From Candidatus Aminicenantota bacterium (GTDB lineage Bacteria; Acidobacteriota; Aminicenantia; JAMOAD01), in assembly GCA_027061995.1 (NCBI GenBank), contig JAMOUT010000088.1, positions 1-5,743 of the forward strand: DNA of 5,743 bases, written 5' to 3'. Below are positions 1-5,722 of this stretch, piece after piece. The stretch's first letter is position 1. Every line of letters begins with the position of its first letter. The position numbers were made by a program, and so were the translations under genes. Below the pieces are notes generated by a model, which worked only from the letters and a program-made list of their open reading frames with translations, was not told where the DNA came from and did no database searches.

Positions 1-73
1 TTCTTTAAAATTTTCCAACTCTTTTATTATTTCAAAAAACGATAGAATAATTAAATTCCAAAATATCAAAAAG

Positions 74-116
74 AAAAGCTTCAAAGCATCGAAGCTTCCA
101 AGCCTTCGAGCTTTTT
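74..116 (+). terminator. Possible stem-loop terminator of a gene left of the window
   Basis: AAAAGCT (74-80) can pair with AGCTTTT (109-115), and inside it CGAAG (90-94) pairs with CTTCG (104-108), ending in a run of five T (112-116). The stretch is built from reiterated AAGC/CTTC words, so alternative pairings such as GCTTC/GAAGC exist. A terminator for an upstream gene is plausible, but the interrupted stem makes this weak. Confidence 0.25.
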
Positions 117-331
117 CAAAATCATGCGAGATTTCACAAGAGCTGAGGGTTTTAATAGTTAGATGCCCTGAGAGTCGAAACAAAGTGGAGATCCCGCACC
201 AATTTATAAATCGGGAGAGTAACAATGAGAAAAAACTTGTGAGGGTAAATCAAAGAATAAGAAAAAAATTGGTGCAGCTGCCCGAAAATGTTTTTAGCTC
301 CGATGCTTCGAGGCTCTATGCTTTAAGCTTT
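75..331. repeat. Imperfect inverted repeat pair bracketing about 230 bp
   Basis: The arm at 75-89 (AAAGCTT-C-AAAGCAT) is complementary to the arm at 318-331 (ATGCTTTAAGCTTT) over 14 bases with one unpaired C. Between the arms lies a second exact complementary pair (196-205 with 266-275). The arrangement resembles either a long folded RNA or a miniature inverted-repeat element. No transposase is present and no flanking target-site duplication was recognised, so this is only a description of the repeats. Confidence 0.35.
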
Positions 332-432
332 GATGGAGGAGGTGTAAATATGTGGTTAAAAACAAGACTGAAATTTCCGATGAAATGAGCGAGAGCTTTA
401 CTTCTCCGCTCGTTAAATGTTTGGGATTTTAA

Positions 433-3135: not shown

Positions 3136-3164
3136 TTGACAAATTACAGTTTCTTTCTTATATT
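3136..3164 (+). promoter_or_regulatory. Near-consensus sigma70-type promoter
   Basis: A perfect -35 box TTGACA (3136-3141), a 17-base spacer and TATATT (3159-3164, five of six matches to TATAAT) make this the best promoter in the window. Transcription would begin at about 3170-3173, giving a leader of roughly 235 bases before the peptide gene at 3407. That leader contains the small ORF, the CT tract and the anti-Shine-Dalgarno element. It probably drives the 3407-5341 cluster. Confidence 0.75.
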
Positions 3165-3196
3165 AAATAATTATGATTAAAGGCGGAAAAATTAAG

Positions 3197-3289
3197 ATGG
3201 TAGGATTAAAGGGAACGAACGGTTTTACTCTCTCTCTCTCTCTCTCTGTAAAGATTGGATTTACTGTGAATTTGTTAATAATAAATTAA
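3197..3289 (+). CDS. Candidate leader-peptide ORF with CT tract (30 aa, or 38 aa from ATG 3173)
   Basis: The ORF starts at ATG 3197, preceded by an AGGCGG ribosome-binding-like site (3181-3186) at a spacing of ten bases. An in-frame ATG at 3173 lies almost on the predicted transcription start and would be leaderless. The (CT)10 tract encodes alternating Leu and Ser after the sequence NGFT, and the product ends in a short hydrophobic stretch (VNLLIIN). The TAA at 3287-3289 lies one base before an anti-Shine-Dalgarno element for the peptide gene at 3407. That is the geometry of a translational attenuator, where translation of the leader ORF frees the downstream site. One extra CT unit would stop translation at 3249-3251; one fewer would move the stop to 3298-3300. 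GFTL also recalls the cleavage site of type IV prepilins, but the ORF is too short and lacks the usual Glu. It could equally be an untranslated chance frame. Confidence 0.35.
   Translation: MVGLKGTNGFTLSLSLSVKIGFTVNLLIIN
3228..3247 (+). repeat. (CT)10 dinucleotide microsatellite
   Basis: Twenty bases of uninterrupted CT lie about 57-76 bases downstream of the predicted transcription start and inside the small leader ORF. Such tracts are prone to slipped-strand changes of two bases, which here would change the reading frame and the position at which leader translation ends. Confidence 0.95.
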
Positions 3290-3290
3290 A

Positions 3291-3399
3291 ACCTCCGTGA
3301 TGAAAACCGAAAAAGAAAATTAGGAAGTTACAAAGCTTTCGACTTTTGCAATTATGCAAAAGATAAATTTAATTAAAATTTAAAAAATTAAACGGAGGT
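3291..3399 (+). promoter_or_regulatory. Shine-Dalgarno sequestering leader structure of peptide gene 3407
   Basis: ACCTCCGT at 3291-3298 is the exact reverse complement of ACGGAGGT at 3392-3399, the ribosome binding site of the gene at 3407 (spacing seven bases). Pairing would close a 93-base loop. Inside it are a perfect 8-bp hairpin (3343-3362) and a weaker AAATTT/AAATTT stem (3365-3381), which bring the two arms closer together. The upstream small ORF stops at 3287-3289, so a ribosome finishing there would cover the anti-site. A translational attenuator, a ligand-sensing leader or a thermosensor are all compatible; the complementarity itself is seen directly. Confidence 0.55.
3343..3362 (+). 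promoter_or_regulatory. Perfect 8-bp hairpin or operator-like inverted repeat
   Basis: CTTTTGCA (3343-3350) and TGCAAAAG (3355-3362) are exact complements around the four-base loop ATTA. It lies in the leader of the peptide gene, within the loop closed by the anti-Shine-Dalgarno pairing. No T-run follows, so it is not a terminator. It may help fold the leader, or be a protein-binding palindrome in DNA. Confidence 0.5.
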
Positions 3400-3406
3400 A
3401 AGAAAG

Positions 3407-3646
3407 ATGAATAATAAAATAGGCAAAAGAAAGATAGAAAAGATTTTGTTTTCTGTTTTATTAAGCATATTGTTGATCGTAGGGGTGTTTGTTACTTCTT
3501 TAATTACACAGAGTGATGTTATCGCAATGTCAGCGGGGGATTCTATATGTTGGACCGGAGTATCGTGCTATCATGTTGGTCAGAAATGTAATGTTAGTTG
3601 TGATTGTAACTGGATAGGAATATGTAAGTACGAATATGTAAAATAA
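3407..3646 (+). CDS. Small secreted six-cysteine peptide (79 aa)
   Basis: This is a tiny exported peptide without a family I can name. A basic start (MNNKIGKRKIEK) is followed by a hydrophobic core at about residues 14-34 and cleavage near VIA-MSA-GDS (38-46). That position is comparable to where the NVEALA motif sits in Bacteroidales peptides. The mature part of about 35 residues holds six cysteines, C48, C54, C61, C65, C67 and C73, enough for three disulfides, and ends in a short charged tail. The final NWIGIC resembles the W-x-C end of the peptides at 482 and 5507, so it is probably a diverged relative. Its leader is different from theirs: it has its own promoter (3136-3164) and a ribosome binding site, ACGGAGGT, that can be masked. 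A 14-bp hairpin separates it from the propeller lipoprotein 64 bases downstream. Signal, toxin, adhesion or ligand roles are all open. Confidence 0.8.
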   Translation: MNNKIGKRKIEKILFSVLLSILLIVGVFVTSLITQSDVIAMSAGDSICWTGVSCYHVGQKCNVSCDCNWIGICKYEYVK

Positions 3647-3660
3647 ATAATATAACAAAT

Positions 3661-3693
3661 AAGAGAACGGGCTTTTTATAAGCCCGTTCTCTT
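3661..3693 (+). terminator. Perfect 14-bp hairpin between peptide and lipoprotein genes
   Basis: AAGAGAACGGGCTT (3661-3674) pairs without mismatch with 3680-3693 around the loop TTTAT, and one further T-A pair (3660/3694) is possible. The 3' side reads TTAATATAAGG with no T-run, so termination on the + strand would be inefficient. It could instead block 3'-to-5' decay and so protect the peptide transcript, or act as a partial terminator setting a high peptide-to-propeller ratio. The ribosome binding site of the next gene begins six bases later. Confidence 0.7.
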
Positions 3694-3710
3694 AATATAA
3701 GGAGAAGAAT

Positions 3711-4841
3711 ATGAAAGGAAATATTAAGATTTTTATTATTGTTTCTTTTATATTAATAGTTTTTCAAGGATGCGAAGAAAGAAAAAAGATAAAGCATTTT
3801 GATTTATTAGCATCGAAAAAAACTATTGGTGTTTACGGTGGAAATTATAGGGGGGTTTTCTCTTTTAGAGTTGATAAAGAAGGTTCGGTATATATTGGAA
3901 ATGGTAAAAAGGTTTGTATTGATAAATATGAGAGAAACGGAAAGTATTTATATTCTTTCGGGAGAAGGGGGAACGGACCTGGTGAATTTCAATGGGTACC
4001 TTTTATTTGCTTTGATAATAATTTGAATTTATATGCCATAAATAATAATAAATTGCAAATATTTAACAAAAACGGAATATTCAAAAAATCTGTAAAAATT
4101 CCGGATAATCCCGAATGGGGATATCTTCAAAATATAGAATATGTTTACGAAAATAAAGTTATTCTTACTTATGAAAATTCTTTTAGATATCGATTTGTTT
4201 TGTATGATTTTAATACAGTAGAGGAAAGAATTTTACTAAGGGATGAGAAAAAATATAGTGAAAAGGCTATGAAATTTCATAATCTTCTCGCCCGTTTTAC
4301 CCCTGCTATTTTTGTTGATAAAGATGGCAACATATATATTGCCGATTCGGTTGACTATAAAATTTATATTTTTGATAAAAACGGAAAATATAAAAGAACA
4401 TTTGAAAAAAAATACAGACACATAAAAATAGATTTAGCTAAAGATTTTATATTGCCAAATATAAAGAGCAAGAGACTATTAAAAGAGCTTAAATCCGGAA
4501 TTACATTAATAAAAATGGCTATTAAAAAAATAGGAGGAATTTACGAGAACTATCCCGATATTATCGGCTTAAATATTGATAATAATAAGATATATATATG
4601 GTCTTCAAAAAGGGATATTAACGGATACGGATATATAGTTGATATTTATAATAAAAATTTCAGACTTTTGGAAAAAAGAAATTATTATGATGATCTTAGA
4701 CATCGTATTGTTATTCGGAATAATTTTCTTTATATACCTGATATATTGCCGGAGAAAAATGAAAAAGTTGGCAGAGTCAGTTGGGCATTATATTCTCTCG
4801 GAACATCCGAAAAAATATTAAAATTTAAATTAAAATCATGA
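3711..4841 (+). CDS. Six-bladed beta-propeller lipoprotein (376 aa)
   Basis: This is the clearest propeller of the window. A lipoprotein signal (hydrophobic residues 5-18, lipobox FQGC with C21) is followed by Glu-Glu-Arg, so it is probably anchored in an envelope membrane. FGRRGNGPGEF (83-93) is the hallmark motif. Strand units with Asp-x-x-Gly turns recur at about 52-82, 98-121 (FDNNLNLYAI, KLQIFNKNG) and 200-231 (FVDKDGNIYIADS, then IYIFDKNGKYKRTF). A helical insertion spans about 241-276, ending near YENYPDII (278-285), the place where the 797 and 1902 products carry a PE(F/Y)xP motif; further blades run to about 365. AAGGAG at 3699-3704, six bases upstream, fixes the start. The last codon overlaps the start of the thioredoxin-like gene (ATGA), indicating translational coupling. 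No catalytic site is visible. A binding or scaffold role with the neighbouring peptide is inferred from gene order only. Confidence 0.85.
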   Translation: MKGNIKIFIIVSFILIVFQGCEERKKIKHFDLLASKKTIGVYGGNYRGVFSFRVDKEGSVYIGNGKKVCIDKYERNGKYLYSFGRRGNGPGEFQWVPFICFDNNLNLYAINNNKLQIFNKNGIFKKSVKIPDNPEWGYLQNIEYVYENKVILTYENSFRYRFVLYDFNTVEERILLRDEKKYSEKAMKFHNLLARFTPAIFVDKDGNIYIADSVDYKIYIFDKNGKYKRTFEKKYRHIKIDLAKDFILPNIKSKRLLKELKSGITLIKMAIKKIGGIYENYPDIIGLNIDNNKIYIWSSKRDINGYGYIVDIYNKNFRLLEKRNYYDDLRHRIVIRNNFLYIPDILPEKNEKVGRVSWALYSLGTSEKILKFKLKS

Positions 4842-5341: not shown

Positions 5342-5454
5342 TATTTATTTATAAAAAGCTTCGTATCTTATTAAAGAAAACGGTATTAGGATGAGAAAAG
5401 GGAAAAGAAGAAGCTATATTTAGGTATTTTTACAGATGATTTTTCGGTTTTTAT

Positions 5455-5498
5455 ATTTTGTTGAAAAATGTTAAGAAATTGATTAATATTAAGGAGGA
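5455..5498 (+). repeat. Peptide-gene leader repeat, copy 2
   Basis: The first 36 bases (5455-5490) are identical to 433-468, followed directly by AAGGAGGA, the ribosome binding site of the peptide at 5507. The sequence upstream of 5455 differs from that upstream of 433 apart from T-richness, so the repeat has a definite left edge. On the right the similarity fades within the signal-peptide codons. A terminator for the thioredoxin-like gene was not seen in the 113 bases between 5342 and 5454. Confidence 0.8.
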
Positions 5499-5506
5499 TA
5501 GGTAAG

Positions 5507-5722
5507 ATGAGTAAGAAAAAAATTCTATCAATATTAATAATTAGTTTGATGGTTTTGGGGACTATAATGTTTGTGGCGAACAACCTTCAAGCGAAAATGG
5601 ATGCAGGAGAAGGATGTGATAAAGTAAAGAGTCGCTGCACAAACGGTGGAGGACCTTTGTGTGCTACGGTTACAGAAGGAAATATAACTTGGTATTGCTA
5701 TTATGGTGCTATAGAAAGATAA
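5507..5722 (+). CDS. Small secreted Cys-containing peptide, GGPxC/WxC type (71 aa)
   Basis: This is a paralogue of the peptide at 482 and has exactly the same length. A basic start (MSKKK) leads into hydrophobic residues 6-23, then NNLQAKMDAGEGC, where cleavage probably falls between residues 29 and 34. The mature part has four cysteines, C37, C44, C52 and C64, allowing two disulfides, with GGGPLC at 47-52 and WYC at 62-64. C37, the GGP-x-C cysteine and W-x-C align with the first peptide, and C44 is extra. The 36-base leader is shared; similarity drops after the signal region, the pattern expected of a family with a fixed export part and a diversifying mature part. AAGGAGG at 5491-5497 lies nine bases upstream of the start. 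By analogy with the two earlier units, a propeller gene may follow beyond the right edge. Confidence 0.8.
   Translation: MSKKKILSILIISLMVLGTIMFVANNLQAKMDAGEGCDKVKSRCTNGGGPLCATVTEGNITWYCYYGAIER

Follow-up and report, generated by a model that had tools for sequence, protein, structure and literature searches.

A pure (CT)10 tract within a small open reading frame (ORF) probably acts as a phase-variable switch, in which a translated leader gates a downstream secreted-peptide operon by the length of the tract. The window, i.e. the whole stretch of DNA that was analysed (5743 bases), is the entire contig C88 of a 2.36-Mb Candidatus Aminicenantes MAG (G000). Two other Candidatus Aminicenantes MAGs, JAMOVU01 (PIR-30; hereafter G003) and JALVQI01 (A3; hereafter G004), carry related leaders. 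With one genome per species, tract lengths were compared across paralogous copies and across species.

In the proposed mechanism, the tract would be a slippage site in the translated leader ORF and would gate translation of an operon for a secreted peptide and a beta-propeller protein. The mRNA would start just upstream of the leader, and the Shine-Dalgarno (SD) sequence of the operon would be held closed by the anti-SD element ACCTCCGT. A leader ribosome that terminates at or just before this element would cover it and thereby free the SD. A tract length that gives an early stop would let the element re-pair, and the operon would then be poorly translated. One unit gained or lost at replication would place the leader stop at 3300 (nine units, the frame ending in KPP), 3289 (ten units, as assembled) or 3251 (11 units). 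Because replication slippage would move the leader stop in this way, the proposal is that peptide expression would differ heritably, and presumably reversibly, from cell to cell.

Anatomy of the leader and its operon

The elements of the leader and the complementarity between them can be read directly from the DNA (Table 1). A near-consensus promoter had been noted ahead of the tract and is indeed present; the other CT-type copies of the leader and the G003 leaders of CA type, described below, have a counterpart, although it is degenerate in the C59 and C28 copies according to the alignment. A second in-frame ATG lies upstream at 3173, and it is the ATG at 3197 that has the SD AAAGGCGG. Every CT-type copy keeps this leader SD as GGCGG or GGTGG, the CA-type copies of G003 have AAGG(C/T)GGG in its place, and the leader SD of G004 is weaker.

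The original prediction placed the end of the ten-unit ORF beside the anti-SD, and the stop codon of the assembled allele (TAA, 3287-3289) indeed falls two bases ahead of the CCTCC core of that element (3292-3296). The predicted ends of the other two alleles were exact in the frame analysis. With nine units the ORF stops at TGA 3298-3300, within the anti-SD, and with 11 units it stops at TAA 3249-3251. Whatever the frame, the tract codes for alternating Thr-His or Ser-Leu.

Table 1. Features of the window (positions in nucleotides from its first base).
Feature	Position	Strand	Basis
3' part of a second, full-length CT-type leader	1-388	+	Aligned with G000 C3, C30 and C59
Promoter, TTGACA (3136-3141), 17 bp, TATATT (3159-3164)	3136-3164	+	Sequence; aligned counterparts in copies
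Leader SD AAAGGCGG	3179-3186	+	10 nt before ATG 3197; sequence
Leader ORF as assembled (ten units, 30 aa, C-terminus LLIIN followed by stop)	3197-3289	+	No stop ahead of the tract in 8/8 copies
Putative slippage tract, pure (CT)10	3228-3247	+	Counterparts in G000 copies and relatives
Conserved frame after the tract, KDWIYCEFVNNKLKPP followed by stop	3250-3300	+	Fused to the leader start at nine (0 mod 3) units
Approximate seam between CT-type 5' half and KPP/anti-SD-type 3' half	3262-3270	+	Homology limits
Anti-SD ACCTCCGT	3291-3298	+	Exact complement of 3392-3399
SD ACGGAGGT of the peptide gene	3392-3399	+	Sequence; predicted unpaired probability 0.00
79-aa secreted Cys-containing peptide, first gene under the proposed control	3407-3646	+	ORF; hydrophobic N-terminal segment
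Inverted repeat in the peptide/propeller gap, terminator- or attenuator-like	3660-3694	+	Opposite-strand self-match
376-aa lipoprotein-like NHL/six-bladed beta-propeller	3711-4841	+	NCBIfam, Pfam and PDB matches
167-aa protein with N-terminal membrane segment	4838-5341	+	No family above cut-off

Searches of Pfam and NCBIfam returned no family for the peptides or the leader. The window propeller partially matched NCBIfam NF035926 (E 1.9e-15) and matched NHL domains in the PDB (E 5e-16); its match to Pfam DUF5128 (E 1.8e-4) was under the cut-off of that family. The gap between the peptide gene and the propeller gene holds a strong inverted repeat, possibly a partial terminator that sets the peptide:propeller ratio. 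Rfam gave no match at gathering score in the window, and two sub-threshold L20-leader matches lie near this hairpin.

The operons behind related leaders are similarly organized. Behind every leader with the KPP end stands a gene whose product is small and has a hydrophobic N-terminal segment. The products of these first genes are mostly 64-79 aa long and contain Cys; two are ~140 aa and that of G003 C135b is 240 aa. The peptide gene is usually followed by one or two propeller genes (~330-390 aa, motif G-x-G-x-GPG(E/D)) and, in several operons, by a gene for a ~155-170 aa protein after the propeller. Secreted products that differ between cells would fit a role in surface exposure or competition. 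The last peptide of the window (5507-5722, 71 aa) recurs almost unchanged on G000 contig C30, where it stands behind a full 15-unit CT-type leader.

Tract rarity, length variation and frame conservation

A long pure dinucleotide tract had been regarded as unusual, and this was borne out. Under a first-order Markov model, (CT)10 is expected ~1e-6 times in the 2.36-Mb genome, counting both strands, while four pure CT tracts of at least eight units were found in G000, every one within a copy of the window leader. The (CT)10 tract is therefore not a product of chance. Besides one mixed run, a (CW)8 scan that covered the five genomes of the family yielded 14 tracts of pure CT or CA, each of at least eight units, and every one of the 14 lies in such a leader (four in G000, nine in G003 and one in G004). 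Any (CW)9 run was present in only 18 of the 142 genomes of the class. Those inspected outside the family were single and mostly intergenic, and none stood ahead of a peptide operon; no wider system is therefore claimed.

The window leader belongs to a multi-copy family. The 5' half, comprising promoter, SD, ATG and CT tract (window 3136-3268), was found at five more places in G000 and two in G003. The number of CT units is 8 (C3), 11 (C59) and 15 (C30) in G000, and 10 (C30) and 11 (C25) in the G003 copies. The remaining G000 copies, on C90 and C28, have an interrupted tract, CTCTCTCTTTCTCTCTCTCT, which is as long as ten units. The 3' half, comprising the end of the leader ORF, the anti-SD, the SD and the start of the peptide, was found at eleven places in the two relatives, namely three in G004 and seven in G003 plus one cut by a contig end. 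A sequence model of this half re-found the G003 and G004 places and found none in two other genomes of the family. In a scan of ~85,000 genomes with the genome of the window left out, only JAMOVU01 and JALVQI01 matched the conserved leader end, and the KPP pattern was unmatched in viral contigs.

The tracts of the KPP-type leaders in G003 and G004 are mostly (CA)n with 7, 10, 11 or 12 units; one CA tract has 15 units with a substitution and another is eroded to three. Judged between paralogous copies, tract lengths appear to change faster than their flanks. The tract of G003 C155 has 12 units and those of C11a and C23 have 10, with 0/90 and 1/90 flank differences respectively. In the C90 and C28 copies of G000, the interruption should slow slippage and these are possibly locked alleles; the common 3' ends of these two copies may have been collapsed during assembly.

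Ahead of the tract, all eight copies with a visible start (three genomes; 31 to 327 nt) are free of stops in the leader frame, whereas these segments contain 2-10 and 0-7 stops in the two alternative frames. Beyond the tract, one frame ends in IY(E/C)xFxNN(K/R)LKPP and a stop at the anti-SD. In this KPP frame, 8 of the 15 variable codon columns are purely synonymous (11 copies; TGA/TAA exchange at the stop counted), against 0/15 and 0/14 in the other two frames. Eight synonymous columns were reached in 0/20,000 permutations in which column patterns were shuffled among same-base positions. The absence of stops before the tract and the synonymous bias after it indicate that both sides are kept as coding, and tract length, as judged from these frames, decides whether the two parts are joined. 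The leader codons ahead of the tract showed no clear synonymous excess, which suggests that the peptide sequence there matters little.

The KPP stop is within reach of every copy with a visible start by a change of zero to two units. In G003 C135a, which has (CA)11, the KPP frame is joined as assembled in a leader of 86 aa. Against a switch, however, this is the only one of the eight visible-start copies with the KPP frame as assembled, and the other seven need a change of one or two units. The original prediction that the tract sets the leader frame relative to the anti-SD thus gained from length variation, the open leader frame and KPP conservation, but the conserved allele is that of nine units and not of ten. 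As the evolutionarily kept frame is the one that stops at 3298-3300, the assembled ten-unit allele lies outside it. The ten-unit stop at 3289 is still near enough to cover the anti-site.

Homology of the window to the CT-type copies stops at ~3268, and homology to the KPP-type leaders of G003 and G004 starts just past the tract. By alignment, therefore, the window leader is a chimera of a CT-type 5' half joined just past the tract to a KPP/anti-SD 3' half. Leaders of this kind could also be read as repeats through which operon cassettes recombine, with the tract a recombination seam or a neutral microsatellite and no switch. The position of the window seam, 15-25 bp past the tract, is consistent with that, as are the many copies, the contigs that end within leaders and the two CT copies with an interrupted tract. 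A neutral tract would nevertheless be unexpected in two unrelated leaders (CT and CA), always between an open and a conserved frame, and the frame conservation at both sides of the tract would be left unexplained; recombination without a switch is unlikely.

Predicted sequestration and modelled opening of the operon Shine-Dalgarno sequence

Folding of 11 leaders with ViennaRNA gave an SD:anti-SD pairing probability of 1.00 or 0.99 in ten and 0.67 in one. The window anti-SD has a predicted pairing probability of 1.00, and the unpaired probability of the window SD (Table 1) was lower than in each of 150 shuffled leaders, whose median was 0.21. When the region from tract to SD was shuffled in the different leaders, the number as closed as the natural sequence ranged from 0/150 (window and G004 C174a) to 10/150, with 34/150 for G003 C11a. 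A second type of peptide leader in G000 (AATTTTGTTGAAAAATG..., nine places) showed no consistent SD sequestration and no clear anti-SD.

Opening was modelled by placing a ribosome footprint on the leader. With the footprint on the KPP stop, the predicted SD accessibility was 0.24-0.55 in six of the seven G003 leaders and 0.68-0.78 in G004. Against the switch, the SD of G003 C80b remains shut even then. A footprint 11 nt before the KPP stop opens the SD of G004 but not that of G003 in the model, and still earlier stops open it in no leader (0.00-0.01). A further point against the switch is that the freed SD of the window re-pairs with the CT tract in the fold model unless the tract is covered as well. 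With the tract covered too, the window SD would open to 0.57 with nine units and 0.61 with ten, but would stay at 0.00 with 11. These modelled openings suggest that two of the three frames may be open in the window and one of three in G003. The expectation that a leader ribosome opens the downstream site accordingly found agreement in the model for nine and ten units with a covered tract, but pairing of the uncovered CT tract with the SD had not been foreseen. The predicted polarity, in which an early stop is the OFF state, comes from energy models that represent the ribosome by its footprint. Differences in geometry among the leaders also count against the switch: the anti-SD falls within the KPP codons of the window and of G004, whereas in G003 it is 5 nt beyond the stop.

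The same sequestration bears on a reading in which the leader encodes a small protein of ~33-131 aa (C-terminus NNKLKPP) that is itself functional and phase-variable, with only an incidental coupling to the peptide gene. The KPP C-terminus is kept at the protein level and the leaders of G003 and G004 reach 86-131 aa, as such a protein would lead one to expect. However, the CT-type, G003 and G004 leaders have wholly different N-termini and share only their terminal part, over or next to the anti-SD, and folding predicts a sequestered SD in 11/11 leaders. An independent small protein is hence considered quite unlikely.

Relation to known systems

Simple-sequence-repeat (SSR) phase variation is known from contingency loci such as opa in Neisseria and mod and lic in Haemophilus. 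Phase variation is mostly known from host-associated bacteria and works through the frame or the promoter of the gene itself. Like these contingency loci, the leaders contain a short tandem repeat in an open frame that is set by the number of units, they belong to surface or secreted products encoded in several copies, and the repeat lengths differ between copies. The (CT)10 tract is a pure short tandem repeat beyond chance within an ORF, the tracts are more variable than their flanks among paralogous copies, and changes in unit number shift the frame among several ends of which one is conserved. In contrast, the repeat here is in a separate leader ORF rather than in the product gene or its promoter, and the frame of the product is unchanged. 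GeneTack phase-variation clusters served as the comparison for SSR phase variation (PMC3711429). Hypervariation in Gracilibacterium (PMC6851277) was considered as a precedent and set aside, as its 9-mer repeat is in a surface-protein gene and not in a leader. A length-variable repeat in an mRNA leader is also known to set the expression of a downstream gene, as proposed here; that repeat is the target of an sRNA, whereas the present one shifts the frame of a leader ORF.

The ermB and ermC leader peptides served as the comparison for translational attenuation (PMC8274638). In both systems, a leader ORF has its own start, an anti-SD hides the downstream SD and the position of the ribosome decides. 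The leader ORF has its own ribosome binding site in the window and G003, where the SD and frame conservation predict its translation, and folding predicts that all 11 leaders hide the operon SD behind an element which a leader ribosome could cover. Unlike the erm leaders, in which a drug induces stalling, the place of the stop here would be set by the length of a DNA tract, and no inducer is implied. That the leader is instead a translational attenuator, sensing a cellular signal through ribosomes that pause within the Thr-His or Ser-Leu run, with length as a tuner only, would suit an alternating run that persists in any frame and the erm-like layout of leader ORF, anti-SD and SD, but is very unlikely, since residues are exchanged wholesale among copies (Ser-Leu vs Thr-His), the run number varies, the downstream operon is not one of amino-acid biosynthesis and a frame change by one unit would remove the terminal region. 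An attenuator of the his, thr or leu type was likewise ruled out, as the downstream genes encode secreted peptides and propellers.

Bacteroidetes operons of the NVEALA type encode a small secreted peptide and a six-bladed beta-propeller, and the gene order, peptide first and propeller second, is the same here. Because the peptides match no Pfam or NCBIfam family, membership in the NVEALA type is not claimed.

Full-text literature searches, with most subscription papers outside their coverage, found no description of such an arrangement. The phase-variable leader joins known parts in a new combination and is likely an undescribed design of on/off switch. If true, the switch has been relocated to a small leader ORF, where it would act by the position of a ribosome on an anti-SD, with three defined frames and predicted different outputs. 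It would also recur ahead of many secreted-peptide operons in an uncultured environmental phylum, and would hint at pressure for cell-to-cell variation in the secreted peptides. Each related operon, having its own tract, would switch independently. It is conceivable, though still tentative, that about ten secreted-peptide operons are gated in this independent manner, that the cells of a population express many different peptide combinations and that new operons gain a gate by recombination of leader halves.

The second CT-type leader, at the beginning of the window, would have its tract past the start of the contig. The extended body shared by the CT-type leaders (window 1-388 and its copies) is only a candidate coding region, since it contains indels that are not multiples of three, as well as a transposon-like insert. 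This insert (window 196-275) has 10-bp inverted ends (GCACCAATTT...AAATTGGTGC). The G003 C25 copy lacks a stretch of ~100 nt that holds the insert, which suggests a small mobile element. The motif AATTTTGTTGAAAAATGTTAAGAAATTGATTAATATT of the second leader type, which has no clear anti-SD, is present in the window at 432-468 and 5454-5490 and occurs at nine places in the genome, most of them directly ahead of the SD of a peptide gene.
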